Positions 34,936-52,430 of a DNA stretch of 64,000 nucleotides are shown here, piece by piece. The stretch covers positions 252,233-316,232 of the forward strand of contig NZ_LMIK01000004.1 of assembly GCF_001428685.1 (NCBI RefSeq), given 5' to 3'. A program made the position numbers and the translations under genes. Below the pieces are notes generated by a model. The model had not been told where the DNA came from, did not search any database, and was given only the letters and a program-made list of their open reading frames with translations. This stretch comes from Lysobacter sp. Root76 (GTDB lineage: Bacteria; Pseudomonadota; Gammaproteobacteria; Xanthomonadales; Xanthomonadaceae). Position 1 is the stretch's first letter. Each line of letters begins with the position of its first letter.

Positions 34936-36462
34936 CTAATGCGGAGGCGATGCAGGAGCTGTTGCGGGTGCCGTCGCGGGTGCCGTTGCGGGTGCTGTTG
35001 CGGGTGCTGTTGCAAGTGCCGTTGCAGGTGCCGTTGCAGGTGCCGTTGCGGGCGCCGTGGCAGGCGCAGTCGCGGGGCGAGCTGCGGTCGCTGGTGCGGT
35101 AGCCGGCGCAGTCGCGGGTGCCGTGGCGGGTGCAGTGGTCGGCGCCGTAGCGGGCGCGGTGACTGGTGCGGTCGCGGGTCGCGCCGCAGTTGCCGGCGCG
35201 GTCGCGGGCGCCGTTGCAGGAGCGGTTGCGGGCGCGGGCGGCGTAGCCGGCCGTGGCGGTGGACGCGCGGCATCGGCGATGGCGGTGTCCATGGCCGTGC
35301 GCCGCTCGCGATCGCCCGCCTGCTGCGAGGCCAGGCGCGCATTGCGGGCGACGTTGGGATCGGGCTCGGCGGCCGGGTTGATCGAGGTATTGCGGATGCG
35401 GTCGGCCTGCGCCTGCGCCGCCATCTGATTCAGCGGCAGATAATCGCTGCGGAAATTCAGCTCGACCGAGGAATTGAGTTCGAGGTCGGTGTTCATCTCC
35501 TCGGAACTCTGCGAGCGCTGGGTCGAGACGTAGCCGATGTTGTTCTCGATCTCGGCGCTGGCTCCCCAAGGGCCGACCCCGAAGCTGCCGGACGCGCGCA
35601 CCCGGTTGTTCATGTTGAACTGGCTGCCGCGGTCCTCGCTGGCCGCGCTGCGGGTGTCGACGTGGAAACGCATCGAGGCGTTGATGCGGCCGCTGTCGAT
35701 CACGATGCGCTGCATGCCCAGCATGACCATGGTCGCAAGCATCTGCTGGCGCTGGCGCGCGATGTAGCGCCGCGCCAGCGGCACCAGCTGCTCGGGGTTG
35801 CTGGCGTCGACCGACTCCTCCGGTTGCATGCCCAGTTGCGCGCGTATCTCCTCCGCGCTCGGCATCGAAGCGCCGCCGCGCAGTCGCAGGCGGATCTCCG
35901 CGGCCTCTTCGGGATCGACTTCCTCGCCCTCCTCGGACTGCTCGTACTCGATGTTCTGCGGGAAATGTTCGGCCACCCATTGCCGGACCTGGATGATGCT
36001 GAACTGGCTGCGCTCGAAACCCTCGGCCGAGGCCGACACGCTGTTGAGCAGTTGCACGTACATCTGCATCTGCTGCGAGTTGGAATCGAGCATGGCCTTG
36101 AACACGCCGTTGATCAGGTCGGTCACGAAGCGCGGGAACGAGACCGCATTGAGCACGTTGCGGGTGGTGTCGGCGACGCGGTCGGCGGCCGCGGCGAAGC
36201 CCGGCTGGTCCTGCGCGCGCGCCAGCGGCGGCGACGCGCGCTGCGCGAGCTCCGCATCGGCCTGACCCTCCTCGGCGATCAGGTCCGCCGCCAGCGCCGA
36301 CACCCGCACCATCGAGCGCGCCAGCGATTGCCGGTCCTGCAGCGACAGGCTCTGATAGTTGGGCGACTGCTCCAGTACATCGCGCACCGCGCTGCGGATC
36401 CACGGCGGCGGCGGCGCGGCAGCCGGCGCGGACGCAGCGGCACGGGCGGCGGCGACGCTCAT
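34936..36462 (-). CDS. Unknown core-family paralogue A with Pro-Ala-Thr tail
   Basis: A 508-residue protein, one of four paralogues in this operon. Shared blocks are an N-terminal SAVRDVLEQSPNYQSLS, SFPRFVTDLINGVFKAML with SNSQQMQMYVQLLNSV, ATMVMLGMQRIVIDSGRI with NASMRFHV, and LNFRSDYLPLNQMA. This copy has a more acidic middle (SEEGEEVDPEEAAE) and from about residue 400 a tail of PATA repeats encoded by 12-base units. No signal peptide; function unknown. It is the last gene of the operon and lies 1 base after the stop of the preceding gene. Confidence 0.8.
   Translation of the reverse strand: MSVAAARAAASAPAAAPPPPWIRSAVRDVLEQSPNYQSLSLQDRQSLARSMVRVSALAADLIAEEGQADAELAQRASPPLARAQDQPGFAAAADRVADTTRNVLNAVSFPRFVTDLINGVFKAMLDSNSQQMQMYVQLLNSVSASAEGFERSQFSIIQVRQWVAEHFPQNIEYEQSEEGEEVDPEEAAEIRLRLRGGASMPSAEEIRAQLGMQPEESVDASNPEQLVPLARRYIARQRQQMLATMVMLGMQRIVIDSGRINASMRFHVDTRSAASEDRGSQFNMNNRVRASGSFGVGPWGASAEIENNIGYVSTQRSQSSEEMNTDLELNSSVELNFRSDYLPLNQMAAQAQADRIRNTSINPAAEPDPNVARNARLASQQAGDRERRTAMDTAIADAARPPPRPATPPAPATAPATAPATAPATAARPATAPVTAPATAPTTAPATAPATAPATAPATAARPATAPATAPATAPATAPATALATAPATAPATAPATAPATAPASPPH
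34939..35260. repeat. 12-base tandem repeats encoding the PATA tail
   Basis: Degenerate 12-base units (for example GTGCCGTTGCGG, GTGCTGTTGCGG on the plus strand) run for about 300 bases at the end of the paralogue A gene. Gain or loss of units keeps the frame, so tail length could vary between strains. Confidence 0.8.
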
Positions 36463-36463
36463 C

Positions 36464-37354
36464 TCAGGCCGCCGCCGACAAGGTCGGCGCCGACCCCGAT
36501 GCCGGCGCGGCGATGCGCCCGGACAGCCAGCGCTGGGCGGCGCCGATCAGCTCGTAGTCCTCGGCCGCGATCTGCGGTGCGGGATCGGCGTAGTGCTCGG
36601 CCAGCCACAGCAGCACGGTCTGGCCGGCGCGCCCCTGATCGACGCGGCGCTGGATCAGGCTCGCGCTCTGGCCCTGGGTGGCACCCGCTATCGCGACCAG
36701 CTGCCACAACGAGTTCACCCCGAACGCGGCCTGCAGCATGCGATCGCGCAGGAAGCCCAGGGCCAAGTTGATGTTGGCGACGATGTCGCGCGCCGCCAGG
36801 TTCGCCATCGGGTCCACGCGCAGCGCCAGGAACTCGCCCAGCGAGGCGCACGCGGTTTCCAGCGCCACGCGCTCGCGCAGGTCGCCGCCGTCGGCCTGGG
36901 CCACGATCGCTTCGCACAAGGCCGCCATCAGGCGTTCGAAGTACGGGGTTTCGATCACCCGGGCGAAGATCGCCTGACGCTCGTTGACGTCCAGGCGTTC
37001 GCGACGCGCGCGCCAGAAACTGTTGATGAGCTGCGCGCCCGGACCCAGCGGCTGGGTGATCGCACCGCTGGCGAACAGGCCGGCGATCAGCTCGGCGGTC
37101 GGCAGCAGGCCGGCGGCTTCGAGTTCGGCGGCGAAGTACAGCGGCGCGGCCGCCTGCAGCTGGGCGCGGTCCATCGCATTGGGCGCGCCCGGCGGCAGGT
37201 CGATCGCGCTGTCGAGCGGATCGGCCGACAGCGCCAGCGCCATCGCCGACTGTCGCTCCAGCGCCGCCAGCGACAAGGCCAGGGCGCGCAGCAACGGCTC
37301 GTGCTCGTGGCGCGGGGCGAGGCGGATGTCCGGCGGCGGCGGGGCCAGGCGCAT
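36464..37354 (-). CDS. Unknown helical protein sharing a domain with the 699-residue protein
   Basis: A 296-residue helical protein. Its segment YFAAELEAAGLLPTAELIAG then LFASGAITQPLGPGAQLINSFWRARRERLDVNERQAIFARV aligns with YFAYMLEEMRMPQVIERIVE and LFRAGLLPLGRGKAGDYLFNYYKKAGERITEGERRDLYMRV of the gene at 41219-43318, and VLLWLAEHYADPAPQ to AAQRWLSGRI matches IIRWLANNHQRLSG to ACEQWLAVGG. It therefore carries a stand-alone copy of that C-terminal domain. No signal peptide or known family. It lies between paralogues A and B. Confidence 0.75.
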   Translation of the reverse strand: MRLAPPPPDIRLAPRHEHEPLLRALALSLAALERQSAMALALSADPLDSAIDLPPGAPNAMDRAQLQAAAPLYFAAELEAAGLLPTAELIAGLFASGAITQPLGPGAQLINSFWRARRERLDVNERQAIFARVIETPYFERLMAALCEAIVAQADGGDLRERVALETACASLGEFLALRVDPMANLAARDIVANINLALGFLRDRMLQAAFGVNSLWQLVAIAGATQGQSASLIQRRVDQGRAGQTVLLWLAEHYADPAPQIAAEDYELIGAAQRWLSGRIAAPASGSAPTLSAAA

Positions 37355-37366
37355 GCGCGTGCCCCG

Positions 37367-38617
37367 TCAGCGATTGCCGCTGCCCTGCGCGCCGCCGGCG
37401 GCGGCACCGCCGCGCGCGCCCGGCACGTAGTTCGGATCGACCGGCGTCGAATTGCCCTGGATCGCCGCGATCATGGCCGGCGAGGCCAGCTTCTCCATCG
37501 GGAAGTAGTCCGACTTGAAGTTGACCCGCACCTCGCCGGTGAGTTTGGCCTTCATGTCCTGCTTGGACTCGGAGTCCTCGCTTACCGAAGACGACACCGT
37601 GGTCATGTGGCGCTGCACGTTCTCGTTGACCGAGCCCGCCGCGCCCCAGCCGAAATGGACGCCGGCCGCGCTGCGGTTGCGGTTCATGCTCGACTGGCTG
37701 TCGTACAGGGAGGCGCCGGCCGAACGCGAGGCTTCGTCGCTGGCGCGGAAGTCGAACACGACCTTGGCGTTGATCGCGCCGTCGGTGACGACGATGCGGT
37801 TGATGCCCAAGATCACCATCGACGACAACAGCTGCTGGCGGCTGCGCGCCATCTGCAGGCGCGCGGCCTGGGTCAGCCGCGCCTCCTGGTCGGCATCGGA
37901 AATGTCGGTGATCGGCTGGGCGATCTGCAGTTCGGCGTTGATCCGGGCCAAGGCCGCCTGGTCGTCTTCCTCATTGATGTTGGTCAGGCGCGGACCGCCG
38001 CCCTCGGAATCGCTGGCGTCGATGCCCAGATCGCCGGGGAAGCGGTCGACCAGCCAATCGCGCGCATTGTTGAGGCTGATGTTGTCGGCGGCGAACTGGT
38101 CGACCGTCTGCGCCACCGATTTCAGCAGCTCGCCGTACGCGTTCATCTGCTGGATCGAGGCGTTGACGATGGCCTGAAACACGTTCTGGATCAGGCCGCC
38201 GACGAAGGCCGGGAAATCCACCGAGCCGATGTACTTCTTGAAGTTGTCGGCGCCTTGTTCGACCGAACCGGCCTTGAAGTCGCTGCCGGCGAAGGTGCCG
38301 ATCTTGTCGGACGCCTTGCCCTTGGCCTGATCGACTTCGCCGGCGAGCGCACGCGTCAGGCCGTCTTCGCTGCCCTGACTCTTGGCCAGGATGCCCTGCC
38401 CCGGCGTGAGCTCCTGCTTGGCGAGGCCGTCGGGATTGGTCATGTACGAAGCCACGCGCACCATGTTGCGCGCCAGCTCCTGCTGCTCGGCCACCGGCAG
38501 CTCGCGAAAGCCGGGCGAGGATTCGAGCAGGCGCCGCACCTGCGGCCGCACCGCCGACAGGGTGTCGTCGTCCAGCCACGACGGCGGGGCGGCTGCGCTG
38601 CGCACTGAGTCGCTCAT
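37367..38617 (-). CDS. Unknown core-family paralogue B
   Basis: A 416-residue member of the operon's paralogous family: VRPQVRRLLESSPGFRELPV, VDFPAFVGGLIQNVFQAIV with NASIQQMNAYGELLKSVAQT, SSMVILGINRIVVTDGAIN with AKVVFDFRASDEA, and EVRVNFKSDYFPMEKLAS then PAMIAAIQGN. Start 38617 (MSDSVRS) is chosen because GGGAG lies 8 bases upstream; ATG 38623 is too close to it. No signal peptide. The strong sequence conservation of the central strand-rich block among the four copies suggests a shared assembly role. Confidence 0.8.
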   Translation of the reverse strand: MSDSVRSAAAPPSWLDDDTLSAVRPQVRRLLESSPGFRELPVAEQQELARNMVRVASYMTNPDGLAKQELTPGQGILAKSQGSEDGLTRALAGEVDQAKGKASDKIGTFAGSDFKAGSVEQGADNFKKYIGSVDFPAFVGGLIQNVFQAIVNASIQQMNAYGELLKSVAQTVDQFAADNISLNNARDWLVDRFPGDLGIDASDSEGGGPRLTNINEEDDQAALARINAELQIAQPITDISDADQEARLTQAARLQMARSRQQLLSSMVILGINRIVVTDGAINAKVVFDFRASDEASRSAGASLYDSQSSMNRNRSAAGVHFGWGAAGSVNENVQRHMTTVSSSVSEDSESKQDMKAKLTGEVRVNFKSDYFPMEKLASPAMIAAIQGNSTPVDPNYVPGARGGAAAGGAQGSGNR

Positions 38618-38642
38618 GGCCATCGCTCCCTTGCCCGCCGCC

Positions 38643-39998
38643 TCAACGCGTCGCCGGCGGTGTGGTCGCCGGCGCCGCGGCCTGACCGCCCTGCGCAGGC
38701 GGACGTCCGGCCAGGGTCTTGACCATGCCCGGTTGAGCGTTCATCTGGATCGCCGCGATCGATTCGGGATTGGCCAGCTTTTCCAGCGGCAGATAGTCGC
38801 TCTTGAAGTTGACCTCCATCGTGCCGGCCAGACTGGCCTTGGTCTGCAGGCTGGCGTCGATCGTGGTCTGCGAGGCCGATGCCATCTTCAGCACCGGCTG
38901 CGCGGTGGTCTTGTAGGTGCCCTTGGAGTAATAGCTGGCGTCGCGGTTGCTGCTTTGGTAGCCGGCGTCCTTGCTGTAGGAACTGCTGCGCTCGCCGCCC
39001 TCGGAGCTGCCCTCGTAGTCGCCGCTGGAGGTGGTCGCGTACTGGTCGCCGTAGTCGAACTGCTGCGCGCTCTTGCGGAACGACATGTTGTCGCGGGCCT
39101 GGAAGTCGTACATGACCTTGGCCGATATCTTGCCGTCGGTGACCACGATCCGGCTCATGCCCAGCATCACCATGGTCGCCAGCAGTTGCTGGCGGCCGGT
39201 CGCGACCTGGGTGCGCGCGGCAGGCACCAGCACCGCTTCGATCAGTTCGTCGTCGAGGCGTTCGATCGGCTTGTCCAGCGGCAGCGAGCTGTTGAGCCGC
39301 CCGACCGCCGCGCGCTCGTCGACGCCTTCGCGCAGGGTCACGCGCGGTCCGGACGAGGCGGCGCTCTCGTCGCCGAATCCGCCCATGTCGCCGAAGCCGC
39401 CGGTGTCCATGCTCAACTGGAACATGTCAGGGAACTGCTCGACCAGATGATCGCGGCCCTGGTTCTGGGTGGTGTTGTCGTCGCGGAACTGGTTGAGGCT
39501 CTTGGAAACGTCGGCGACCAGTTTGGCGTAGGCCTCCATCTGCTCGATCGAGCTCTGCACCAGCGAATGGAACACGCCGTTGATGAGGCCGGCGCAGAAT
39601 TCCGGAAAGTTGACCTCGCGCAGCAAGGCGCCGGCCACGGCCGCGCCTTCGCGCGCGCTCTGCGCAGTGAATTTTCCCTCCTGGTCGGTGTTGCTGCCGC
39701 GCTGGCTGACCCGCGACAGACCCTCGTTGGCCAAGGCGCGCACCTGCGGGCTTTGTTCTTCGGGCTTGAGCTTGATCCCCGGCTCGGCCAGATAGCTGCC
39801 GATCCGCACCAGGCCCTGGGCCAGCGCTTCGCGCTTCTCAGGCGCCAGTTCGTGGAAGGCCTGGCTGCTCTGCAGCAGTTCGCGCACGGCCAGGCGCGCG
39901 GATTCGTGGGTTTCGCGGCTGGCCACCGGCGCCGAGCCGGAATCGGCGGGACGCGCGGTAGGCGGAAAGATCGCGGATCTGACGCTCGCGGCTGACAT
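38643..39998 (-). CDS. Unknown core-family paralogue C
   Basis: A 451-residue paralogue: ARLAVRELLQSSQAFHELAP, VNFPEFCAGLINGVFHSLVQ, SSIEQMEAYAKLVADVSKSL with NQFRDDNTTQNQGRDHLVEQ, ATMVMLGMSRIVVTDGKISA with KVMYDFQARD, EVNFKSDYLPLEKLANPES. Between blocks it has a Ser/Tyr/Gly-rich stretch (SGDYEGSSEGGERSSSYS) that may be disordered. The end is Gln/Ala/Pro-rich. Start 39998 has GGAG 8 bases upstream; a longer frame exists but lacks a site. It lies 25 bases before paralogue B. Confidence 0.8.
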   Translation of the reverse strand: MSAASVRSAIFPPTARPADSGSAPVASRETHESARLAVRELLQSSQAFHELAPEKREALAQGLVRIGSYLAEPGIKLKPEEQSPQVRALANEGLSRVSQRGSNTDQEGKFTAQSAREGAAVAGALLREVNFPEFCAGLINGVFHSLVQSSIEQMEAYAKLVADVSKSLNQFRDDNTTQNQGRDHLVEQFPDMFQLSMDTGGFGDMGGFGDESAASSGPRVTLREGVDERAAVGRLNSSLPLDKPIERLDDELIEAVLVPAARTQVATGRQQLLATMVMLGMSRIVVTDGKISAKVMYDFQARDNMSFRKSAQQFDYGDQYATTSSGDYEGSSEGGERSSSYSKDAGYQSSNRDASYYSKGTYKTTAQPVLKMASASQTTIDASLQTKASLAGTMEVNFKSDYLPLEKLANPESIAAIQMNAQPGMVKTLAGRPPAQGGQAAAPATTPPATR

Positions 39999-40118
39999 GG
40001 CTATGACTCCGTCTCTATGTCTTTGCAAAGTCCGGCACCGGGGTCGCCCCGCCCGCCGAAGAACACCCGGAGACGCGCCCGCCCGACGGCGCGCGCCCCA
40101 CCGCCGCGCCGGTGCGCG

Positions 40119-41177
40119 CTACTGCAGCTGACGCGCTTCCTGGATGCTGTCGCGCATCTCGAACTCGATCGGACGCACGTACAGGCTGATGCGCGCCGGC
40201 GAATTCGGATTGACCCGGATGCTCAGCACCGAGAAGTGGCCCTGCTCGCGCGCCTCCTCCATGCCGAAGGCTTCCAGCCAGCGCGACAGCGCGGCGAGCT
40301 GGCGCGGGCGTTCGGCCAGGCCGAGCTTGAGCAGGTCGAGGAAGCGCGCCGGCAGATCGGGAATCGCCGCCAGCAGGATCTCCAGCTTGAGCTCGGCGCC
40401 GTCCGCGGTTTCGCGCACGCCGACCAGCACGCCGCCGTCGGGCAGCTCGAAGCGCCCGCCCAATGCGACCCCGACGATGCGCATCAGGCTGGGCAGCTGA
40501 TGGCCGATGCCGAGCCGATTCATCATCGGTCCCAGCGCCGATACCGCGAGCTTTCCGCGATGCAGGAAGGTCACGCGCTGACTGCCGGATTCGCGCTTGC
40601 AGCCGATCGAGGTGAAGATCGGCATCAGGCTCGGCATCTCCGCCATCACCTGGCGGGTGAGCATCGACAGGCCCGGCGACAGCGCTTCGATCTGGGTCGG
40701 CAGCAGCTCGTAGTAGATCTTGGCCGCGTACAGGCCGTCCTCGTCGAAGGCGCTGCCGAACCAGGCGCCGTAGTTCATCCAGCCCAGGCCGCCGAAGCCG
40801 CGCCATTCCTCGCTGCGCGAGTCGAACCAGCGCAGCGCCTCGCGTCCGAACACCGGCTGCACCAGCCGGCGCATCTCGCGCGTGGCCTCGTCGCGCCGGG
40901 CCACCGGCGGCGCGCCGGGGCCCAGCGGTTCGATGGTGAAGCGCAGCATGTCCGGCTCGGTTTCCGAGAACGAAGGCTCGTACGGCACCGCGCCGGGCGT
41001 GAGCGCATTGCGGGCGTAGGAGACGTCGTCGTCGGGAAGGCGGAAGGTGCGGTCGATCAGCGAATCCAGGTACGGCAGGGGATCGCGCGTGCCCAGGGCG
41101 CGCGCGGCGGTGGCGAGCGAGCGCTTGACGTGCATCGCCATGGGCTGCTTGCCGTGGTGGCTCGAGGGCTGGTTCAT
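40119..41177 (-). CDS. Unknown protein of the protease operon, 352 aa
   Basis: A 352-residue soluble alpha/beta protein without a recognised family. Notable segments are MRRLVQPVFGREALRWFD, MNYGAWFGSAFDEDGLYAAK with IYYELLPTQ, GSQRVTFLHRGKLAVSALG, GVRETADGAELKLEILL and SVLSIRVNPN with ARISLYVRPIEF. The alternation of paired strands ending in a K/R-rich strand recalls ABBA-type prenyltransferase barrels, a weak and untested resemblance. It lies between the 699-residue protein and paralogue C and is probably co-transcribed with them. Confidence 0.7.
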   Translation of the reverse strand: MNQPSSHHGKQPMAMHVKRSLATAARALGTRDPLPYLDSLIDRTFRLPDDDVSYARNALTPGAVPYEPSFSETEPDMLRFTIEPLGPGAPPVARRDEATREMRRLVQPVFGREALRWFDSRSEEWRGFGGLGWMNYGAWFGSAFDEDGLYAAKIYYELLPTQIEALSPGLSMLTRQVMAEMPSLMPIFTSIGCKRESGSQRVTFLHRGKLAVSALGPMMNRLGIGHQLPSLMRIVGVALGGRFELPDGGVLVGVRETADGAELKLEILLAAIPDLPARFLDLLKLGLAERPRQLAALSRWLEAFGMEEAREQGHFSVLSIRVNPNSPARISLYVRPIEFEMRDSIQEARQLQ

Positions 41178-41218
41178 TGCGGTGCTCCCGTGGGGACTTC
41201 AGGCGGCATGGGTCGCGA

Positions 41219-43318
41219 TCACATCAAGGGCATGGAGCCGTTGAGGCCGCCGGTCAGCGATTCGATCGCCTCGCGTGCGAACGCGGGCATCTCGATCGGC
41301 TTGCTGGTGATGACCGGCGACTCGGTCGACTGCGAATAGTGCTCGACGCTCTCGTCCTGCACGCCGCCCACCGCCAGCCACTGCTCGCAGGCCTGCAGCA
41401 GATCCCAGTCGTTGGGATCGACCGTCGGCTGGTCGCTGCCGCGCAGTTGCGGATTGGTCAGCGCCGCCAGAGAGATCACCTCGCCGAAGCGGCCGCTCAG
41501 GCGCTGGTGGTTGTTGGCCAGCCAGCGGATGATCACCGCGCCGGCGCGGGCCTGGGTGCGATAACGATGGGTGTTGCGGGTGCCGCCCAGGTAGTTGGCG
41601 TTGACCTGGTCGATCACCTGCCACATGTCGCGCGCACCGAAGGCGCCGCGGATTTCCGGATCGCTGAGCTGGTCGCGGAATTCCAGGATCATCTGCTGCA
41701 GTTCGGTCGCGGCGAAATAGGCGATGCCGTAGCCGTTCAGCGACAGATTGGCGCCGAGATCGCGTCCGGCCTTGCGCACCTGCTCCTGCGACACGGCCAC
41801 CGGGATGTTGCTGCGCAGGAGCCGGTCGACGCTGAGCTGGCGGCCGAACGAAGACACCGCCGAGACGAAGCGCAGCCACAGCTCGTTGAAGTCGCGGTTG
41901 GGCTGGTTGGCGTTGGGATCGCCGCCCGGGGCGCCGAACACGCGCATGTACAGGTCGCGACGCTCGCCTTCGGTGATGCGCTCGCCGGCCTTCTTGTAGT
42001 AGTTGAACAGGTAGTCGCCGGCCTTGCCGCGGCCCAGTGGCAGCAGCCCGGCGCGGAACAGCTCGACGATCCGCTCGATCACCTGGGGCATGCGCATCTC
42101 TTCCAGCATGTAGGCGAAGTAGATCGCCTGCACCGCATGCAAGTTCTCGCGAATGATCTCGACGTCGGTGGCTTCCTCCAGGTCCGGCAGCATGATTTCC
42201 ATGGCCGATGGAGGCGCGCCGGAGACCACGCCGGTCTGCATGTCGTAGACGTTCTGGATGCGGCTGGCCAGCCACGCATCGTTCGCGCTGACGCCGTCAG
42301 TGGCCAGGCGCCGCACCACCGCGGCGACGTTGCGGCCGCTGAGCGCGCACACGGTTTCGTTGGCGGCGGGCACGAAGGCGTTGCCGGTATCGCGCATGTC
42401 CTCGGCGACGGCGGTGTCCGTGGCCTCCTCCTGCGCCTCTTCGGCGGCGCTGCGCGCGGCGATGGCGACCTCGGCGGCACGGCGCGCCTGCGCGGTCGCG
42501 GCCTCGGCGGCCTTGGTGGCGCTGGCCACGGCGCGGCGCGCCGCAGCCAGCTCGGCCTTGCTCGGCTTCTCGTCGCTCAGCGCCTCCAGTTCGGCCTGCT
42601 TCTCCTTGACGGTCCTGGCGGCCGCACGTGCGCTCTCGCGCGCGCTCGCGGCGGCCTGGTCGGCCTCGCGCGAGCGGGCCAACGCGGCCTGCGCCGCGGC
42701 GATCGCGTTGCGCTTTGCGGCGGAACCGTCGAGCGCGTCGCAACGCGTACGCGGGTCCTCGTTGGGGTCGATGCAGCCGACGATGTCCGGATCGATCAGG
42801 CCCGAGTCGATCTGCGACTTGAGCACCACCGAATAGCGCTGCCCGAGCTGGGCGTAGGCCGCGTCGAACAGATTGCGGTTCTTGCGGTACTCGCCCTGCG
42901 CGGTGCTGATCCGCTGAACGAAGTCCGGACGCGCCGCATCGGTGTAGCCGTCGACCTGAAGCAGGCCGCAGATCGAGGCGATCTCGCGCTCGTACTTGTC
43001 CAGCGGCTCGATCAGGCTGCCGGTCATGCGCTGCGAGCCGAGCAGGCCGTACTTGTGCACGAATTTCTTCTTGCGCTCCAAGTCGTCCCAGGCTTCCTGT
43101 TGATGGGTCGCCGCGACCAGCCGGTAGAACGGGTCGATGACCACGTCGCTGCCCAGCTGCTTCTTGATCCGCTCCAGCTCGTCGAGCTGGCGGCTGCTCA
43201 GTCCGCCGCTGGTGTCGGCGGTCTTCTGGATGGTCTCCAGCACTTGCTGGCGGGCACGCAGCTCCTGGCGCTTCTTCAGCTCGCGCTCGCCCAGGTCAAC
43301 CAGCAGGATACGTTTCAT
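41219..43318 (-). CDS. Unknown 699-residue protein with Ala-rich coiled coil
   Basis: Three parts: an N-terminal charged region (LGERELKKRQELRARQQVLE to WDDLERKKKFVHKYG), an Ala/Arg/Glu coiled coil at about residues 205-320 (SREADQAAASARESARAAAR), and a C-terminal helical domain (about 380-660) homologous to the 296-residue protein at 36464-37354. The start overlaps the upstream 55-residue gene by 4 bases (ATGA). No signal peptide. The rod plus globular domain suggests a structural or scaffold protein. Confidence 0.78.
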   Translation of the reverse strand: MKRILLVDLGERELKKRQELRARQQVLETIQKTADTSGGLSSRQLDELERIKKQLGSDVVIDPFYRLVAATHQQEAWDDLERKKKFVHKYGLLGSQRMTGSLIEPLDKYEREIASICGLLQVDGYTDAARPDFVQRISTAQGEYRKNRNLFDAAYAQLGQRYSVVLKSQIDSGLIDPDIVGCIDPNEDPRTRCDALDGSAAKRNAIAAAQAALARSREADQAAASARESARAAARTVKEKQAELEALSDEKPSKAELAAARRAVASATKAAEAATAQARRAAEVAIAARSAAEEAQEEATDTAVAEDMRDTGNAFVPAANETVCALSGRNVAAVVRRLATDGVSANDAWLASRIQNVYDMQTGVVSGAPPSAMEIMLPDLEEATDVEIIRENLHAVQAIYFAYMLEEMRMPQVIERIVELFRAGLLPLGRGKAGDYLFNYYKKAGERITEGERRDLYMRVFGAPGGDPNANQPNRDFNELWLRFVSAVSSFGRQLSVDRLLRSNIPVAVSQEQVRKAGRDLGANLSLNGYGIAYFAATELQQMILEFRDQLSDPEIRGAFGARDMWQVIDQVNANYLGGTRNTHRYRTQARAGAVIIRWLANNHQRLSGRFGEVISLAALTNPQLRGSDQPTVDPNDWDLLQACEQWLAVGGVQDESVEHYSQSTESPVITSKPIEMPAFAREAIESLTGGLNGSMPLM

Positions 43319-43482
43319 GACGGTTCTCTCGCGTTGGTAACAAAATGGGTGGAGCCGGAATGGCTGGAGCCGGATTGGACGGAGTCGAGTCGGCTGGGAT
43401 GGGCGCGGCGCACGGCGTTACGCTGGTCCGCCGCGGCGCCCGCGTGCTTGCGGGACTTGCTGTTGTGTCGTTTGCTCGCCAT
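43315..43482 (-). CDS. Small basic protein, 55 aa, coupled to the 699-residue protein
   Basis: MASKRHNSKSRKHAGAAADQ then RNAVRRAHPSRLD and a Ser/His-rich end. GAGGAGAG lies a few bases before the ATG and the stop overlaps the next start as ATGA, good evidence that the frame is translated. The Lys/Arg-rich start could bind nucleic acid or a partner. No family is recognised. Confidence 0.6.
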   Translation of the reverse strand: MASKRHNSKSRKHAGAAADQRNAVRRAHPSRLDSVQSGSSHSGSTHFVTNAREPS

Positions 43483-45747: not shown

Positions 45748-45995
45748 GGCTGGCCTCCGCCGCAACTCCAGCTCACGGTCAGGCGCGACGGCATCGCGTT
45801 CCAGGCGTTGACCTCGCGGCTGCGCGGCAGGTCGGCCAGCAGCACGCAGCCGCCGTCGCGCAGGATCGGCCGCAGTTCCAGCGGCAGCGTCATCTCGACG
45901 TTGGCCAGCTGCACCTGCACCGGCAGACCGCGCGCTTCTGTCGCGATCAGGCCGTCATGCAGTTCGTCCAGCAGTTGCGAGAGCTCGCGCAGCAT
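45744..45995 (-). CDS. Small coupled protein, 83 aa
   Basis: LRELSQLLDELHDGLIATEA then LPVQVQLANVEMTLPLELRP and GCVLLADLPRSREVNAW. A helix followed by beta strands, similar in outline to the first part of the 265-residue protein, so possibly a related small domain. The start shares one base with the stop of paralogue D (TGATG) and its stop lies in the next ATGA. No signal peptide. Probably a regulator, chaperone or adaptor of the neighbouring proteases; unproven. Confidence 0.7.
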   Translation of the reverse strand: MLRELSQLLDELHDGLIATEARGLPVQVQLANVEMTLPLELRPILRDGGCVLLADLPRSREVNAWNAMPSRLTVSWSCGGGQP

Positions 45996-46972
45996 CACAC
46001 GCCTCCCTCCGGTGCCGTTGTCGGTGCCGGCGTGGCAGCGGGTGCCGCAGCCGGCACGGCCGCACGCATCGCCGGCGAGTGCCGCTGCACCAAGGCGATC
46101 TTGGCCGCATCGGCCAATCGTTCCAGCGGCAGGGTTTCGCTGACGAAATTGAGCTTGACCTCGCCGAACAGATCGGCGCGGACGTTGGATTCGTTCTGGG
46201 CGTTGACCGCGACCGTCGACACCATGGTCGAGCTCTGGCCGCTGTAGCTCATCGCGCCGCGCTCGCCCCAGTTGTTGACCGACTGCGGGTCGGCGCCGAC
46301 CGCGTAGCCGACCTTGGCCGCATCCTGGGCCGCGGCACGGAACATCACCTTGCTGGTGATGCTGCCGTCGCGCACCACGACCCGGCTCATGCCGAGCATG
46401 ACCATGGTCGCGAGCAGTTGCTGGCGCTCGCCGCCGACCTTGAGCCGGACCTGCGGAAGCACGCGCTGCTCCAGCACTTCGGTGCTCAGTTCCTCGCCGT
46501 CGACGCCGTACTCGCTCAGCCACGCCGGCATCAGGCCCTCGGCGCGCGGCGCCAGCTGCGGCTCGCTGCGTTCGCCGCCGTCGGGCAGCAGCAGCTGCAC
46601 TTCGCCGGGATAGCGGGTGGCGAGCCAGTCGCGCGCCTGATTGGGGCTGACGTTCTCTTCGGTGAACTGATCCAAGGTCTTGGCCACCGCCGCGACCAGG
46701 CTGGAGTAGCTCTCCATCTGCCGGATCGAGGCATCGACGATGGCGTCGAAAGTGCCGTGCACGAGCTGGGCCACGAAGCCCGGGAAGTCGATCTCGTTGA
46801 CCATCGCACCGGCGCGGCGGGCGATGGTCTCGGTGGCCTGCGGCTTGGGCGCAGCCGCTGGCGTCGCAACTGCGCCGCCTGCGGCCGGCGCATCGGCCAG
46901 CGCGCGCGCGGGCGACGGCGCCCCGTTCCTGGGCGGAAAGATCCTGCCGCGAGTGCCGTTGTGCTCGGACAC
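45995..46972 (-). CDS. Unknown core-family paralogue D, shortest copy
   Basis: A 325-residue paralogue: IDFPGFVAQLVHGTFDAIVD, ASIRQMESYSSLVAAVAKTL then DQFTEENVSPNQARDWLATR, ATMVMLGMSRVVVRDGSITS with KVMFRAAAQDA, and EVKLNFVSETLPLERLADAA. It lacks the N-terminal SPxF helix pair of copies A-C and starts with GTRGRIFPPRNG, a short IFPP motif also in copy C (SAIFPPTARP). It lies directly between the giant multi-peptidase gene and the 83-residue gene. Confidence 0.8.
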   Translation of the reverse strand: MSEHNGTRGRIFPPRNGAPSPARALADAPAAGGAVATPAAAPKPQATETIARRAGAMVNEIDFPGFVAQLVHGTFDAIVDASIRQMESYSSLVAAVAKTLDQFTEENVSPNQARDWLATRYPGEVQLLLPDGGERSEPQLAPRAEGLMPAWLSEYGVDGEELSTEVLEQRVLPQVRLKVGGERQQLLATMVMLGMSRVVVRDGSITSKVMFRAAAQDAAKVGYAVGADPQSVNNWGERGAMSYSGQSSTMVSTVAVNAQNESNVRADLFGEVKLNFVSETLPLERLADAAKIALVQRHSPAMRAAVPAAAPAATPAPTTAPEGGV

Positions 46973-46982
46973 GGTGCGATCC

Positions 46983-49900
46983 TCAGGCCGTCGTCACCCA
47001 GCGGTTCTCGCGCTCGTAGCGGCCGTCGCCGAGCAGGCGCAATTCGATCCGCGCCGCCGGACTGCCCTGTGCGAGCCCACTGAACCGGTAATCGATGCTC
47101 AGCTTCAGCGCCGCGACGCTGCCGACATCGGCGGCGTCCTCGATGCGCGCGGTCGCTTCCACGCCGTAGGCCAGATTGGCCGGCAGGCCGGCGACGACGC
47201 GGACGTCGCCGACCGAACCCTGCGAGGCGCGGAAATCGACCGTGATCGGCAGCGGCGAGGACTGGCCTTCGATCGCCGGCCATTCGCCGAGCTCGATGCG
47301 CACCTCCAAGGCCGCGGCCGAACTCACGCTCGGCGAAAACAGCGCCGGCGACTTCAGGCCTTCGAGCTGGTCCAGGGCCCAGCGGCAGGCGCCGGCGCTG
47401 CCGCGCAGCACGTTCATGCGCGTGCCGGCGACGCGGCTGGGCTCGATCGGCTCGCGGGTTTCGCCCGACGCGCTGGCATCGCTGCCGCTGTCCAGCGCCC
47501 GCACCGGCGACGGCGGACGCGCCAGCCGCAGACCGCCGCCGTAGCCCAGCGATTGCGCGCTGGGGCTCGGCGCTTCGGGCGGCAGGTACAGCACGCGCCA
47601 GTTGCCGTAGTCGGGTTCGGCCATGTTGCCGAAGTCGGCGGCGAAGTCGGCGAACGGCAGCCAGTCTTCGTAGCCGTTGTTGGCCGGATGGAAGTCGATC
47701 GGATCGGCGTCGAAAGCGACGCGGGTGTCCCAGGGATTGAGCACCTTGACCTGCACCGAGGCCGGATCCTCGAGGTTGCCGCGGATGCCGGCGATCACCA
47801 CCGCATGCGGCGCGCCCACGATCACCACCCACAAGGCGCCGCAGTCGCGCAGCCACTGCGCCCATTGGCTGGGCGTGTTGTAGACGCTGGCGTTGGACGG
47901 ATGCGGGATCACGACGAAGCCGTAGCGGTCGCGCACGGCATTGAGCAGATCCCAGCCGTAGGAACTGGCGAGCGAGCCGCCGACCTGGTTGGCCAGGGTC
48001 TCGGGCGTGTACGAAGCGTTGCGTCGCCACGACAGCAGCATCGCCATCGACGCGGCCCAGCAGGCGTCCTTGTTCGGCTGCGGAACCAGCACCACCGGAT
48101 AGTCGGCGCCGCCGCCGGACAGCGCGCGCACCGGACGCCCGCCGCCGAGCGCGAACGTGGTCGCGCGGCCTTCGATCCAGTCGATCTTGGTCGGGGTGAT
48201 GAAACAGCCTCGGTTGAGTCCCTGCGCCGCCGGCTGGCCGGTGACGTGGACCGCGCAGACCTGGGCCTTGAGCTGGCCGCTGCTGCGATCCAGATGGTAG
48301 ACCGGCGAACCGCTGGCGCCATGCAGGGTCAGGATCGGGTACTCGATCACCTCGCCGTTGCTTTGCGAAGCCGCATAGCCGCCGTGCAGGTGCTGCTTGT
48401 CGCCGTCGATCGCCGCGGTGAGCTCGGGCACCGCGTCGGACGCGCCGGAGTAACCGCAGACCACGATCGGCAGGCGATCGGACGGGGTCGCGTTGAGGAA
48501 TTCGAAGTACTGCCCGTTGGGCGCGGCGATCGGCACGTTCTCGATCACCGCCAGATCGTTCTCCCAGTTGCCCGTGCCGGTGTAGCGCGGCGCGATCCGC
48601 CACGACGAACTGGGCAGGGTGCATTCGCCGAACGGCTTGACCCCGGCACCGTTCTGGCCCGGCACCACGGTCACGTTGACCTTGTTGTGCAGGTTGTGGG
48701 CGCAGGTGAGGATGCGGTTGGGGCCGATGTAGAAGCCGGTACCGCCCCAGCCGTTGCCTGCGCTGTCTGTCATCAGCAACTGGCAGATCGCCGAATGCGG
48801 GAACGCGCGGGTGTCTTCGACGCCGACGAACCATTCCTCGCGCGCCAAGCTGAAGGCGTCGTCCTGGCAGGTCAGCGCGCTCATCGGGTTGGAGGGGTCG
48901 TAGTACGGGGTGATGATTTCCTGCGCGGTCGCGTAGGCGCGACCGGGCAGGGCGAGCGCGGTCGCGCGCCCACGCCCGCGCAAGCCCTGCGTGGTCGGCG
49001 CAGGCGCGGCGGCCGCGGCCGCGGCGCGCACGCAGTCCATGTAGTGGTCCCAGTTCCACAGTCGGCTCGGGCAATCGTGGTTGTCGCGCGGCGACGCTTC
49101 CTGGTGGCCGACGATGTGCTCGCGATCGATCGGCAGGCCGTATTGCGCGCACAGCCAGGCGACCAGCGCCGACGACGCCTGGTACTGCTCTTCGGTCGGG
49201 TCCAGGCCGCGCTTGTTGGCGACGTGCTCGATGCCGATGCCGTGGGTGTTGGCGCTGCTGGCATGCCAGGCCACGTCGTTGTTGCGCACCATCTGCACGA
49301 CTTCGCCGTCGCGGCCGATCACGTAGTGGGCGCTGACAGTGATGTGCTCGTTGCGCGAGTTGCGCTGGTCGGGGTTCTGGAACCAGCCGATGGTGCCGCT
49401 GATGCGCGAGCCGCCGTCGGTGATGTGGATGACGATGCGGTCGACCGTGCGCTGGGTGCGCATGCTGCGGTAGTTGCCGGTGTAGGCAGGGGCGAAACGG
49501 CTGGCGCCCGGGTACTCGGCGGTCGGCGCGTCGAACGCGCGCGCCTGCCGGTACGACTGCTCGGCGGCCACGGTCTCGTCCGGGATCGCCTCGCTGATGC
49601 CCTTGTTGTCCTGCTCGTCGTCTTCCAGCGCGAATGCGCGGGTCTGCCCGCGCCTGCTGCCGGGCATGCCCAGGGCGAAGGTGGTGGCGCGGCCTTCGAT
49701 CCAGTCGATCTTGCTGGGGGTGATGAAGCAGCCGCGATTGAGCCCCTGCGCGGCCGGTTCGCCGCTGACATGGACCGCGCAGATCAGCGCCTTGAGCCCG
49801 CCGCCGCGGTCGGACAGTGTGTAGACCGGCGAACCGCTGGCGCCCATCAGCGACAGGATCGGATAGTCGATGGTCTCGGGATTGGGCTGCTCGCGCACGT

Positions 49901-52082
49901 AACCGCCGTGCAGGTGCTGCTTGTCGCCGTCGATGATCGTGTCCAGCTCCGGCACCGCGCGCGAGGCCGCGGAATAGCCGCAGACCACGATCGGCAGGCG
50001 GTCCGAGGGCGTCGCCTGCAGGAACTCGAAGTACTGGCCATTGGGCGCGGCCAGCGGAACGTTATCGATCACCGCCAGGTCGTTGTTCCAGTCGCCGTCG
50101 CCCGTATAGCGCGGCGCGATCCGCCAGGACGAGGACTGCACGGTGCATTGCCCATAGGGACGCCCGCTCGCGCCGTTGCGGCCGGGGACGATCTGCACGC
50201 TGCTCATGCCGTGCAGGTTATGGGCGCAGGTCAGGATGCGGTTGTGGCCGATGTAGAAGCCGGTGCCCTGGTAGCCGGATCCGTCGGGACCGGTGATCAG
50301 CAGCTGGCAGATAGCCGAATGCGGATACAGCGAGGTGTTCGGCACGCCGGCGAACCACTCCTCGCGCGCCAGGCTGAAGGCGTCGGCCTGGCAGCTCAGC
50401 GCGGTGGACGGATCGGCGGGGTCGTAGAACGGGGTGATGATCTCCTGCGCGCGCGCATGGACCTTGCCGCCGCCCAATGCCTGCGCACGCGGCGCGGCGC
50501 GACTGGCGAGCGAGAACGAGATGCCGAAACCCGCGGCCTCCTGGGCGATCCACTGGCGCTTGGCCGCGGTGATCCGGCAGCCCAGGTTGGTGGTGGCCGA
50601 ATGCGCGGCCACGTGCACGCCGACCATGTGCGCGCGCGGGAAGGTGCCGCCTTCGATCCAGTACACCGGCGAGCCGCTGGCGCCGCCCAGGGTCTGCAGG
50701 TCGTAGTCGAAGGTTTCGTCGGTGGGCAGGCTGCGAATGTAACCGCCGTGCATGTGCTGCTTGTTCGGGTCGATGTTGTCGTTGACCCATTGCTCGATCG
50801 CGTCGTTGGCGTACCAGCGCGCGGAATAGCCGCAGACCACCACGCCCTCGGGACGCGACTGGGTCAATTCCTCGACCAGGTCGAAGGTGCGGTCGGCCGG
50901 CACCGCGTTGGCGGCCGGCACGCGGATCACCGCCATGTCGAAGTCGCTGTTGCCGGCGCTGTAGGACGGATGCTTGCGGCAGTCGGCCGCGGCGACGCGG
51001 AAGCGGCCGAAGGGTTCGGTGGCCGTGCTCACGCCGACACCGTTCTTGCCCGGCACGATGATCAGTTCGCTCTGTCCGTCGACCACATGCGCGGCGGTCA
51101 GCAGCAGGCAGGGGCCGATGAAGAACGCGCTGCCGTGCAGCGCCCCTTCTTCGCTGCCGTCGGGCCTGCGCACCTGGCAGATCGCCGAGTGCGGCGGCAC
51201 GGCGGTGTCGGTCACGCCGAGGAACCACATCGCGCTGCTCAGGAAGAACCCGATCTGGCTGGTCAGGGCGTCGAACCAGTTGCTCGGCTGATAGTACGAG
51301 GACACCAGCAGCGAACGCGGATTCGGCGTCGGGGTGCGGTGCGTGGGAGCGTCGTAGCGCTGGCTGTAGCGTGCATAGGACTGCGCGGTCGCGGGCGCGG
51401 CATCGCCCGGCGCGGCGGCGATCGGGGCGCTCCCGTCGATCGGTGCGGCGCCGTTGCCGTTGCTGGCCGGCGCGGGCGCGGGGGACGCCGCGGGCGCGGG
51501 GCCCTGCTGCCACAGATCGTCGGAGTAGCCGTCGCTGTACGGCGCCGGTTCCACCGGCGCGGCCGCGTGCGCGCCGCCGTTGCCGTTGCTGCGGCCGTTG
51601 CCGTTGGTCTTGATCGTCGCGGCCGTGTCGAGCGCGTCGCCGCCCCAGGCCAGGCCGCCGTTGGCGGCGACACCGTAACTCGACACCGCGTCCAGGCGCG
51701 CCGTGCGCCGCAGGCCGCGTTCGGTCAGGCCGCTGAGGTTGACGTACATGTTGCCGGCGTCGGGAATCTTCACCGATACCGGGCGGCTGCGATCGCCCTC
51801 GTTGTAGGTCGCCAAGCCGAAATACAGGCGCGGCTGGCCGACGAAGCGCGCGACCACGCTCGGCGGCACCAGGTAGACCGCGTCGCCGCGGCGCGCGCCG
51901 CTGCCCAGCACGCGGCTGGAGTAGAAGTTGCTGGCCGTGCGCCGGGCGCGATTCTCGGCCTTGAGCAGGTCCGGGTCGGTGGCCAGGCCGATCTCGAACA
52001 GCGGGTTTTCGCTGCGGACCGTGAAGCCCAGCACGCTGAAGCGATCGTCGATCGATTCGCGGTTGGCTCGGATGAGTGCCAT
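46983..52082 (-). CDS. Giant multi-peptidase: three trypsin-like domains, amidase and papain-like domain
   Basis: A 1699-residue protein. Residues 1-135 form an unknown N-terminal domain (FTVRSENPLFEIGLATDPDL), then a Pro/Ala/Asn-Gly linker. Trypsin-like domain 1 has His332/Asp382/Ser471, domain 2 His621/Asp668/Ser751, and domain 3 His1129/Asp1176/Ser1259, all with GASGSPVY nucleophile loops. Between 2 and 3 is an Amidase_2/PGRP domain (His886, His993, Cys1004) expected to cut peptidoglycan. A papain-like domain follows (Cys1341 in KDACWAASMAML, His1426, Asn1449 in LNPWD). The last 140 residues are a beta sandwich. Domains 2 and 3 are close duplicates. No signal peptide. AGGAG lies 11 bases before the ATG. 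Such an array of cell-wall and protein-cutting modules suggests a lytic effector. Confidence 0.88.
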   Translation of the reverse strand: MALIRANRESIDDRFSVLGFTVRSENPLFEIGLATDPDLLKAENRARRTASNFYSSRVLGSGARRGDAVYLVPPSVVARFVGQPRLYFGLATYNEGDRSRPVSVKIPDAGNMYVNLSGLTERGLRRTARLDAVSSYGVAANGGLAWGGDALDTAATIKTNGNGRSNGNGGAHAAAPVEPAPYSDGYSDDLWQQGPAPAASPAPAPASNGNGAAPIDGSAPIAAAPGDAAPATAQSYARYSQRYDAPTHRTPTPNPRSLLVSSYYQPSNWFDALTSQIGFFLSSAMWFLGVTDTAVPPHSAICQVRRPDGSEEGALHGSAFFIGPCLLLTAAHVVDGQSELIIVPGKNGVGVSTATEPFGRFRVAAADCRKHPSYSAGNSDFDMAVIRVPAANAVPADRTFDLVEELTQSRPEGVVVCGYSARWYANDAIEQWVNDNIDPNKQHMHGGYIRSLPTDETFDYDLQTLGGASGSPVYWIEGGTFPRAHMVGVHVAAHSATTNLGCRITAAKRQWIAQEAAGFGISFSLASRAAPRAQALGGGKVHARAQEIITPFYDPADPSTALSCQADAFSLAREEWFAGVPNTSLYPHSAICQLLITGPDGSGYQGTGFYIGHNRILTCAHNLHGMSSVQIVPGRNGASGRPYGQCTVQSSSWRIAPRYTGDGDWNNDLAVIDNVPLAAPNGQYFEFLQATPSDRLPIVVCGYSAASRAVPELDTIIDGDKQHLHGGYVREQPNPETIDYPILSLMGASGSPVYTLSDRGGGLKALICAVHVSGEPAAQGLNRGCFITPSKIDWIEGRATTFALGMPGSRRGQTRAFALEDDEQDNKGISEAIPDETVAAEQSYRQARAFDAPTAEYPGASRFAPAYTGNYRSMRTQRTVDRIVIHITDGGSRISGTIGWFQNPDQRNSRNEHITVSAHYVIGRDGEVVQMVRNNDVAWHASSANTHGIGIEHVANKRGLDPTEEQYQASSALVAWLCAQYGLPIDREHIVGHQEASPRDNHDCPSRLWNWDHYMDCVRAAAAAAAPAPTTQGLRGRGRATALALPGRAYATAQEIITPYYDPSNPMSALTCQDDAFSLAREEWFVGVEDTRAFPHSAICQLLMTDSAGNGWGGTGFYIGPNRILTCAHNLHNKVNVTVVPGQNGAGVKPFGECTLPSSSWRIAPRYTGTGNWENDLAVIENVPIAAPNGQYFEFLNATPSDRLPIVVCGYSGASDAVPELTAAIDGDKQHLHGGYAASQSNGEVIEYPILTLHGASGSPVYHLDRSSGQLKAQVCAVHVTGQPAAQGLNRGCFITPTKIDWIEGRATTFALGGGRPVRALSGGGADYPVVLVPQPNKDACWAASMAMLLSWRRNASYTPETLANQVGGSLASSYGWDLLNAVRDRYGFVVIPHPSNASVYNTPSQWAQWLRDCGALWVVIVGAPHAVVIAGIRGNLEDPASVQVKVLNPWDTRVAFDADPIDFHPANNGYEDWLPFADFAADFGNMAEPDYGNWRVLYLPPEAPSPSAQSLGYGGGLRLARPPSPVRALDSGSDASASGETREPIEPSRVAGTRMNVLRGSAGACRWALDQLEGLKSPALFSPSVSSAAALEVRIELGEWPAIEGQSSPLPITVDFRASQGSVGDVRVVAGLPANLAYGVEATARIEDAADVGSVAALKLSIDYRFSGLAQGSPAARIELRLLGDGRYERENRWVTTA

Positions 52083-52091
52083 GACTGACTC

Positions 52092-52430
52092 CTAGCGACG
52101 CTTGCGTTCACTGATGGAAGAAGCCGCGACATCGCGACGTTCGATCGCCGGCGCGCGAGCATCCAGCGCCAGTTCGATCGGCGTTCCGCCGACGTCGTTG
52201 ATGACCGAAGAAATTCGTTCCCAGAACCGTTGTTGGGCGTCGATGCCGATGCCTTCCAGGTGCGGCTTCATGAACTCGACCACCGATTCGAGATGGCGGA
52301 AGAACGCGCGCTGGCCGGACTGGACGTGCTCGACCGAACCGCGCCATTCGGCGACGGCGGCCTCGGCTTCGCCGCGCTCGCACCAGACGCGAACGATGAA
52401 GACGGCGGTACGGTCCTCGAGCAGTGCCAT
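52092..52430 (-). CDS. Small hypothetical protein heading the protease operon, 112 aa
   Basis: ALLEDRTAVFIVRVWCERGE, AEWRGSVEHVQSGQRAFFRH then LESVVEFMKPHLEGIG. The WRGSVEHVQSG segment looks like a conserved core that I associate with small proteins next to peptidase genes, though this is recollection. The stop is 9 bases before the giant gene's ATG. Start 52430 lacks a strong ribosome site. It is the first gene of the operon, so its upstream region must hold the operon promoter. Confidence 0.65.
   Translation of the reverse strand: MALLEDRTAVFIVRVWCERGEAEAAVAEWRGSVEHVQSGQRAFFRHLESVVEFMKPHLEGIGIDAQQRFWERISSVINDVGGTPIELALDARAPAIERRDVAASSISERKRR

Follow-up and report, generated by a model that had tools for sequence, protein, structure and literature searches.

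The window analysed here, a stretch of 64,000 nucleotides with a G+C content of 69% from the 4.36-Mb genome of Lysobacter sp. Root76 (genome G000), carries at positions 34936–52430 an operon of thirteen genes, g1 to g13, all on the minus strand and transcribed from 52430 towards 34936. In order of transcription these are g1, the giant gene g2, P1 (g3), g4, g5, the subtilase gene g6, g7, g8, g9, P2 (g10), P3 (g11), g12 and P4 (g13); lengths and coordinates are collected in Table 1. Neighbouring genes are joined by 4-base ATGA overlaps at g4/g5, g5/g6 and g7/g8 and by a 1-base overlap at g3/g4, and the remaining eight junctions are gaps of 1–120 bases. The thirteen minus-strand genes with ATGA-type overlaps described in an initial annotation of this DNA are thus recovered.

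Pfam, run on twelve of the thirteen genes (all but g7), recognises three Trypsin_2 stretches, one Amidase_2 domain (2.3e-34) and one C70 papain-like domain (3e-11) in g2, and an S8 domain (1.4e-35) in g6; nothing in the other ten genes scanned exceeds the cut-off, and NCBIfam and PHROGs, each run on ten proteins, added nothing convincing. All three trypsins of g2 hold their His and GASGSP motifs, and the C70 domain its Cys and His motifs. The catalytic residues of g6 stand exactly at Asp172, His222 and Ser387, and the Asp/His/Ser triad is invariant in 71 of 71 aligned sequences. P1 to P4 are paralogues (32–37% identity to the first; profile–profile E-values of 3e-62 and 3e-67), and g8 and g12 have a domain in common (hhalign E 3e-37). 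In these points, namely the subtilisin with its triad, the giant with its five domains, the four paralogues and the pair with a shared domain, the initial annotation was accurate. A hydropathy scan of the same twelve proteins found no evident signal peptide or membrane helix, the sole high-hydropathy stretch lying inside the C70 domain; consequently, no secreted or periplasmic immunity protein is evident among them.

Conservation and co-inheritance of the operon

A query built from the four paralogues matched 13 of the 100 genomes searched, our own included. Four strong copies occur only in G000, G012, G013, G015, G032 and G037, and the other seven genomes each gave one weak match. Genes g2 to g6 and g8 to g13 recur in the same order in the five other genomes, all of the same family, with the G037 locus cut at a contig end within g2. 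A neighbouring epimerase gene was found only in three same-genus stretches, and a DUF1275 gene in two of these; since both neighbours are limited to same-genus stretches, the downstream border of the operon was set accordingly.

Scanning genome contigs with an enlarged paralogue alignment yielded 171 relatives, 80 of which were kept. Judged by profiles of the window's families, the genes found follow a single order in all 79 loci whose P3 was recognised (L115, in which it was not, was dropped from the 80), a test with little power for short loci that hold few genes. In places with enough contig, reckoned by approximate offsets, P1 is present in 64/65 places, g5 in 67/68, g6 in 68/69, g8 in 71/72, g9 in 75/75, P2 in 75/76, P3 in 74/74, g12 in 71/73 and P4 in 64/65, so that each core gene fills at least 97% of its places. 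Six of the eight misses fall in L067, a decayed Cupriavidus copy, and L118. The L067 locus, from Cupriavidus necator A5-1, retains only the g9–P2–P3–g12–P4 end, with split matches of the kind expected from a decaying copy.

The g9 tree contains rows from Pseudomonadota, Myxococcota, Actinomycetota, Cyanobacteriota, Chloroflexota, Acidobacteriota and Thermodesulfobacteriota, the last four with one row each; several of the rarer phyla rest on contigs from metagenome-assembled genomes (MAGs), which may be misbinned. The nearest named relatives of the window's g9 are Lysobacter species. Two actinobacterial rows, one from a MAG and one from a Cellulomonas strain, nest with starred support among Sphingomonas and Burkholderia, which suggests that they were acquired by transfer. 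Nine core proteins were compared by their pairwise distances across 57 loci, which gave correlations of r 0.77–0.93; in 1000 permutations of the g9–P3 pair, the only pair permuted, r reached at most 0.15. The 57 loci exclude L046, L067, L109–L114, L116, L118 and those in which any of the nine genes is missing.

Searches of viral contigs and phage records returned zero relatives of the paralogues, and a phage or prophage origin was rejected on this ground. Among plasmid records, g9 gave a single match, to a Burkholderia replicon of 880 kb. One Burkholderia record gives names to the S8 gene and the giant (annotated as an amidase), and enters each of the eight remaining core genes in the span from P1 through P4 as “hypothetical protein”. 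Compared across these genomes, the operon is a real single unit. The paralogues and the peptidases do occur together elsewhere, in one order and with co-evolving core proteins, and the initial annotation's view of a single system stands.

The polymorphic giant g2 and the fold of g9

From the 80 kept loci we chose 21, and fetched 19 of 20 upstream stretches (G113 was skipped because its contig was too short). In all 19 of these stretches, which belong to divergent loci, a large protein starting with the module that opens g2, here called giN, lies directly before P1 or one gene apart, with one intervening gene in L121, L122, L131 and L134. Counting Pfam matches at E ≤ 0.01 and ignoring unmatched stretches, the 21 giants (the window, L119–L137 and L138) display 14 hydrolase architectures, drawn from Amidase_2, Trypsin_2, C70, C92, NlpC/P60, M15, DUF3238 and a GH46-like domain. 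The last lies within the giants of L126, L128, L129 and L136, and is encoded by separate genes in L121, L122, L131 and L134; a profile of these eight matches a solved chitosanase at 1.6e-6. The separate gene of L122 (2639–4045, minus strand) carries an N-terminal GQYPDxxW motif three times, which resembles the YSDDLW of the window's giant.

All 26 carrier genomes searched have one giN match and no more, and hence no orphan payload was seen; compared with the PDB by sequence, giN gave chance-level matches only. At the other end, a stretch termed giC recurs at the C-terminus of many, not all, g2 homologues. Between giN and the enzymes lies a linker rich in Pro and Ala, with little conservation outside two motifs: LxW[AGI]GD, whose first position is L, F or I, present in 24 of 25 giants, and Y..DG[FYL], present in 25 of 25. 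Both motifs occupy the same alignment columns across distant phyla. Shuffling residues 111–400 gave means of 0.03 and 0.35, respectively, figures that are optimistic because the patterns were set after viewing the sequences and four of the 25 giants (window, G012, G013 and G015) are near-copies. The only giant missing the Trp motif is L136, from genome L118, whose g9 has lost most of its site residues. By its sequence, the giant is a constant N-terminal module with two linker motifs followed by swappable hydrolases, whose cutting activity is predicted.

g9 has a PRENYLTRANSFERASE fold. AlphaFold, run on an alignment of 57 sequences, gave a model with a predicted local distance difference test score (pLDDT) of 90.8 and a predicted template-modelling score (pTM) of 0.88, in which ten strands form five hairpins and the chain runs through five repeats of two strands followed by helices. 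The ABBA/DMATS prenyltransferase barrel likewise consists of ten antiparallel strands in five alpha–alpha–beta–beta repeats. At E ≤ 0.001, Foldseek matched 99 PDB chains. The 50 listed all carry titles of aromatic prenyltransferases, apart from CdpNPT, itself such an enzyme, and bacterial tryptophan prenyltransferases come first, with CymD (6os5) at E 5.5e-13, probability 1.00 and a template-modelling (TM) score of about 0.7. Sequence comparison of g9 with the PDB found no prenyltransferase match. The Pfam model Trp_DMAT scores 14.6 bits on the window's g9, below its gathering threshold of 25, and matches 32 of 57 family members at E ≤ 1, the best at 1.3e-4.

Aligned by profile with nine actinobacterial Trp_DMAT proteins, g9 pairs E67 with the Glu of the DMATS motif TPVEFS, and R79, K153/Y155, R201 and Y333 with an Arg, a Lys/Tyr pair, an Arg and a Tyr. 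In the second motif one Lys and one Tyr are replaced in g9, with T203 standing for the Lys (RxTxL against RxKxY). In DMATS enzymes the Glu acts as the general base, and basic and Tyr residues at the other positions bind the diphosphate. E67, R79 and K/R153 are jointly kept in 51 of 57 sequences, although R201 and Y333 are missing from one of these, L085. Five sequences belonging to one Sphingomonas/Rhizobacter/Erythrobacter clade show a joint change of R79, K153, Y155 and R201, which extends to Y333 in three and to E67 in two, and the g9 of L118 has most of its site residues changed. Among the 91 columns conserved in the 51 others, five of six site columns and 13 of 85 other columns are changed in at least three of the five (Fisher P 0.001, an optimistic value because the six columns were picked after seeing the conservation and the five sequences are related). 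We read this pattern as selection on a ligand-binding site in most carriers, and loss of the entire site in one clade. As the protein is kept in the clade that lost the site, g9 may also serve structurally. Two of the alignments, A7 and A8, hold 64 and 57 author-chosen sequences, A8 without L096 and L104 (near-copies of L092 and L098). g9 is single-copy in 20 of 20 carrier genomes. The Trp motif of the giant was considered as a target of g9 and rejected: L132 and L133 (g9 rows L092 and L106) have lost the site and keep the motif, and we therefore claim no link between the two.

Other operon genes, regulators and flanking DNA

Of the 22 members of the g5 alignment, ten match Trypco2 at E ≤ 0.1, the best with 2e-4, and two match TIG (best 1e-3). 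Homologues of g1 occur in G012, G013, G015 and G032, and two of 19 upstream stretches, L120 and L137, have one ahead of the giant. g4 is present in all five relatives and was recognised in 39 of the 80 wider loci. Either g1 or g4 may be a candidate immunity gene. Open reading frames (ORFs) like g7 were seen in G012, G013, G015, G037 and L044, and in none of the other 12 of 13 wider loci; a role of g7 as peptide precursor was rejected on the rarity of similar ORFs beyond near relatives. The layout of the P paralogues is by eye like that of DUF2589 proteins, an assignment rejected at hhalign probabilities of 0.1–0.6%. DUF2589 proteins also form tandem paralogues in other genomes of the order (L158–L182).

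Upstream of the operon stands a BTAD/SARP-type regulator gene, which adjoins the operon in four of five relatives, the fifth being cut at a contig end. A related BTAD gene lies upstream in 6 of 20 clustered stretches, some of them short, and downstream of P4 on the opposite strand in five further loci. Eleven of 12 other stretches (L121, L123–L125, L127–L129, L132, L133, L135 and L138) hold an ORF of 312–336 amino acids (aa) that by eye resembles a receiver-less sigma-54 activator, an identity confirmed by Pfam in L138, the sole one tested. A cluster with a DUF3467-like gene is found in seven stretches and in L138. A perfect TGGCAC-N5-TTGCW site lies upstream of the DUF3467-like gene in L124, L125, L132 and L135 (4 of 20 loci searched), against a background of 12 in 400 random windows from the same loci. 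In the window region, 0 sigma-70 consensus promoters were found where 1.1 were expected. From its place, we infer that a dedicated regulator switches the operon on.

Between the regulator and g1 (52440–52830) lie repeated GTGGGAGCGACGTAAGTCGCGATCG-like units. An ORF at 54000–54437 is conserved beside the operon; its frame looks doubtful and it was not counted as a part. Further away, the 852-aa product of 29458–32016 (minus strand) combines metallophosphatase, PKD and proprotein-convertase P domains. Among the wider loci, L111, L113 and L116, in the deepest clade of the g9 tree, have a fifth P paralogue and, after P4, a protein of 880–1079 aa and a C70 gene, which in L113 is fused to an N-terminal stretch that by eye resembles an amidase. 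In Burkholderia pyrrocinia (L138:20573-25170), cyclase and patatin-like phospholipase genes follow P4.

Table 1. Features of the operon and its upstream regulator, in window coordinates and in order of transcription, with the domains and motifs of g2 listed below it.
Feature	Length (aa)	Position	Strand	Basis
BTAD/SARP-type transcriptional regulator, upstream of operon		52838..53950	-	Pfam BTAD 9.5e-21
g1, first operon gene	112	52092..52430	-	homologues in relatives
g2, polymorphic multi-hydrolase	1699	46983..52082	-	Pfam; homologues that share the N-terminus but differ in their enzymes
giN, constant N-terminal module of g2		51678..52082	-	alignment; single match per genome
linker motif LAWGGD of g2 (family LxW[AGI]GD)		51636..51653	-	24/25 giants
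linker motif YSDGYSDDLW of g2 (family YDDGFG)		51510..51539	-	25/25 giants
trypsin domain 1 of g2		50604..51191	-	Pfam Trypsin; His and Ser motifs
trypsin domain 2 of g2, approximate borders		49668..50360	-	Trypsin_2 stretch; motifs at residues 616 and 747
Amidase_2 domain of g2		49065..49454	-	Pfam
trypsin domain 3 of g2		48294..48743	-	Pfam Trypsin_2
papain-like C70 domain of g2		47727..48077	-	Pfam; Cys and His motifs
giC, C-terminal stretch of g2, borders set by us		46986..47465	-	recurs in homologues
g3 (P1 paralogue)	325	45995..46972	-	identity, order, profile comparison
g4	83	45744..45995	-	present in relatives
g5, Trypco2-like N-terminus, helix-hairpin-helix-like middle (by eye), TIG-like C-terminus	265	44950..45747	-	Pfam over alignment
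g6, subtilase with no evident signal peptide	474	43529..44953	-	Pfam S8; triad; hydropathy
g7, basic small protein, ATGA-coupled to g8	55	43315..43482	-	similar ORFs in relatives
g8, N-terminal domain, long Ala-rich charged linker, core common with g12	699	41219..43318	-	alignment; hhalign
g9, ABBA (aromatic prenyltransferase) fold	352	40119..41177	-	AlphaFold; Foldseek
g10 (P2 paralogue)	451	38643..39998	-	identity, order, profile comparison
g11 (P3 paralogue)	418	37367..38623	-	identity, order, profile comparison; model pLDDT 69
g12, core domain common with g8	296	36464..37354	-	profile comparison
g13 (P4 paralogue), Pro/Ala/Thr-repeat tail	508	34936..36462	-	identity, order, profile comparison

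Comparison with known systems and interpretation

A literature search that left out most subscription journals and all bioRxiv preprints found no description of this operon among the papers listed, and the statement of the initial annotation that no described system has this gene set is borne out so far. Run on 10 of the 13 proteins, PADLOC gave peptidase-model matches to g6 (2e-13) and g2 (2e-14), with the trypsin models LmuA and RT-Protease matching the g2 trypsin domains at about 1e-14, and otherwise weak matches: PDC-S45 (5.8e-4) and DrmC (0.092) to g2, JetC (0.0062) and type IIG (0.028) to g8, and IetS (0.0084) to g6. It returned nothing for the seven other proteins scanned, and beyond these weak hits the non-enzyme core genes among the ten scanned match no known defence system. 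PHROGs, whose best match in ten proteins is a family of unknown function at E 0.0013, gave no sign of a contractile injection system, tailocin or phage; together with the poor model of P3, which has no fold match, this leaves the multi-subunit scaffold or particle of the initial annotation unsupported. Its interpretation is thus upheld in part, for the single system and the undescribed set, and its idea of a lytic or proteolytic conflict or predation system fits the predicted wall- and protein-cutting, polymorphic payload. Absent from it, and added here, are the fold of g9, the polymorphism of the giant, the resemblance of g5 to Trypco2 and the regulators.

As far as their available text goes, PMC7159879 and PMC10907252 both treat Trypco2 and neither describes this operon. 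The accessible part of the former (Kaur et al. 2020) names Trypco2 for its co-occurrence with trypsins in proposed conflict systems, in which trypsin and S8 peptidases occur. The Trypco1/2–trypsin modules of its VMAP ternary systems resemble the operon in setting a Trypco2-like domain beside trypsin-like peptidases, and in their proposed proteolytic release of effectors; the operon differs in its wall hydrolases, in a co-inherited core with no counterpart in the text available, and in a sub-threshold Trypco2 match. Pfam on the 12 operon genes and eight neighbours found no MoxR, vWA or VMAP component. The NucA–trypsin–subtilisin system (System 3 of the same paper) similarly unites a trypsin and an S8 peptidase, whereas the operon has no recognised NucA nuclease or EAD1 and a different core. 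With polymorphic toxin systems, the subject of PMC3482391, the operon shares a constant N-terminus before a variable catalytic region, as giN and the giants display, and a single toxin gene within a constant operon. Where those toxins end in one toxin domain, the giant often carries more than one hydrolase framed by constant termini, and the operon genes scanned show neither a known immunity family nor an evident export signal. Compared with the aromatic prenyltransferases CymD, PriB, IptA and fungal DMATS, g9 has the same barrel and an aligned Glu, Arg and KxY, but is only 16–18% identical to the top matches and stands outside any natural-product cluster.

Our preferred reading, which we hold tentatively and at somewhat less than an even chance, is that of an inducible, chromosomally encoded, cytosolic and polymorphic lytic-effector system; to us the operon has the look of an inducible lytic weapon, or of a device for self-destruction, that is as yet undescribed. 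This reading draws on the shared gene order, the co-evolution of the core proteins, the single giN per genome, the many architectures and the linker motifs, as well as on the invariant triad, the fold of g9 with its joint site change, the Trypco2-like g5, the regulators and sigma-54 sites, and the lack of evident export signals. Once the regulator had turned the operon on, its products would assemble in the cytosol, with P1–P4, g8/g12 and the Trypco2-like g5 as a constant core holding a single giant per genome through giN and the two linker motifs. The swappable hydrolases, judged by their families, would cut proteins and, in many genomes, wall glycopeptide, and the intact subtilisin g6 would mature or release the payload, with cleavage as the switch. 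g9 would probably modify a partner protein or small molecule with a prenyl diphosphate, for assembly or membrane contact. Since there are no evident export signals and no recognised immunity gene, a payload held from the wall until the membrane fails would be the simplest use, and for this reason the outcome would probably be lysis of the producer cell, with the enzymes released onto phage progeny or neighbours. A bolder version is a conflict system in which g9 acts on its own protein machinery: it would prenylate a partner such as the linker Trp/Tyr motif, or bind it through sensing of prenyl diphosphate, and this step, combined with cutting by the subtilisin, would bring the lytic payload to the membrane. 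We regard it as speculative and quite unlikely.

Several observations weigh against the preferred reading. No membrane-breaching protein is evident, and one would look for polymorphism in toxins directed at other cells rather than in a self-lysis device. The window's g5 scores 14 bits with Trypco2 (PF19631), below the gathering threshold of 24.2, and a genome search with the Trypco2 model recovered 0 of 11 carriers at E ≤ 0.001; given these weak matches, the relation is remote at best. The P3 model is poor (pLDDT 69, pTM 0.42) and has no PDB match at E ≤ 0.001, leaving the paralogue core with no recognised fold. The profile alignment of g9 with DMATS spans 326 colinear columns at a probability of 37% and E 3.6e-4 (against E 0.011 to 0.88 for 11 pairs assumed to be unrelated), and the unrelated model Qn_am_d_aIII weakly matches 22 of 57 g9 members, the best at 0.0039. 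In addition, the GH46-like domain has no conserved Glu at the one site inspected by eye, and the giants of L131, L133 and L134 have a single recognised hydrolase.

A weapon against other cells, in which an exported or injected complex breaks down the cell walls and proteins of competitors or prey, whether bacteria or fungi, corresponds to the predation idea of the initial annotation. It would account for the polymorphic payload and its wall-amidase, papain-like, trypsin and chitosanase-like enzymes, and several carriers belong to genera known as predatory, chitinolytic or plant-associated. We consider it somewhat unlikely, since the proteins scanned have no evident signal peptide or membrane helix, and thus no evident secreted immunity protein, and PHROGs, on ten proteins, and the phage and viral-contig searches yielded no injection machinery or relatives of the paralogues. 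A second alternative is a purely intracellular proteolytic anti-phage system, similar in logic to the Trypco–trypsin and NucA–peptidase systems, in which sensing of an invader triggers the subtilisin, frees the trypsins and other enzymes and kills the infected cell. The Trypco2-like domain of g5, the spread of the operon across phyla, the LmuA and RT-Protease matches and the grouping of several peptidases that have no export signals, as in the available text of PMC7159879, agree with this. Pfam, however, found none of MoxR, vWA, GTPase, NACHT or STAND among the 12 genes scanned, no sensor domain was recognised, the defence matches beyond peptidases are weak in the ten proteins scanned, and an effector confined to the cytosol would have little obvious use for wall amidases; we regard this explanation as unlikely.

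Cyanobactin clusters also combine a subtilisin and an ABBA prenyltransferase in one operon, and a biosynthetic cluster for a prenylated peptide, with the small basic ORF g7 between g6 and g8, might follow a similar logic. It is highly improbable here: no conserved precursor or heterocyclase was found, g7-like ORFs being limited to near relatives and the 12 genes scanned giving no YcaO match, and the giant hydrolase and the further co-evolving proteins have no role in such a pathway. To a set of unrelated neighbours or a phage remnant we give next to no credence in view of the cross-phylum order, the co-evolution and the absence of phage relatives.

A gene order kept over seven phyla, in which most core genes of the window have no Pfam match above cut-off, marks a large blind spot. 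That one operon links a prenyltransferase fold with a constant subtilisin and a polymorphic hydrolase suggests a lytic mechanism for which we found no description in the literature, and if g9 does act on a partner protein as proposed, bacteria would here direct at proteins a fold familiar from natural-product enzymes. With g9 and giN each in single copy among their carriers and a regulator of its own, the operon is directly testable, and its family offers many natural combinations of wall- and protein-cutting enzymes.

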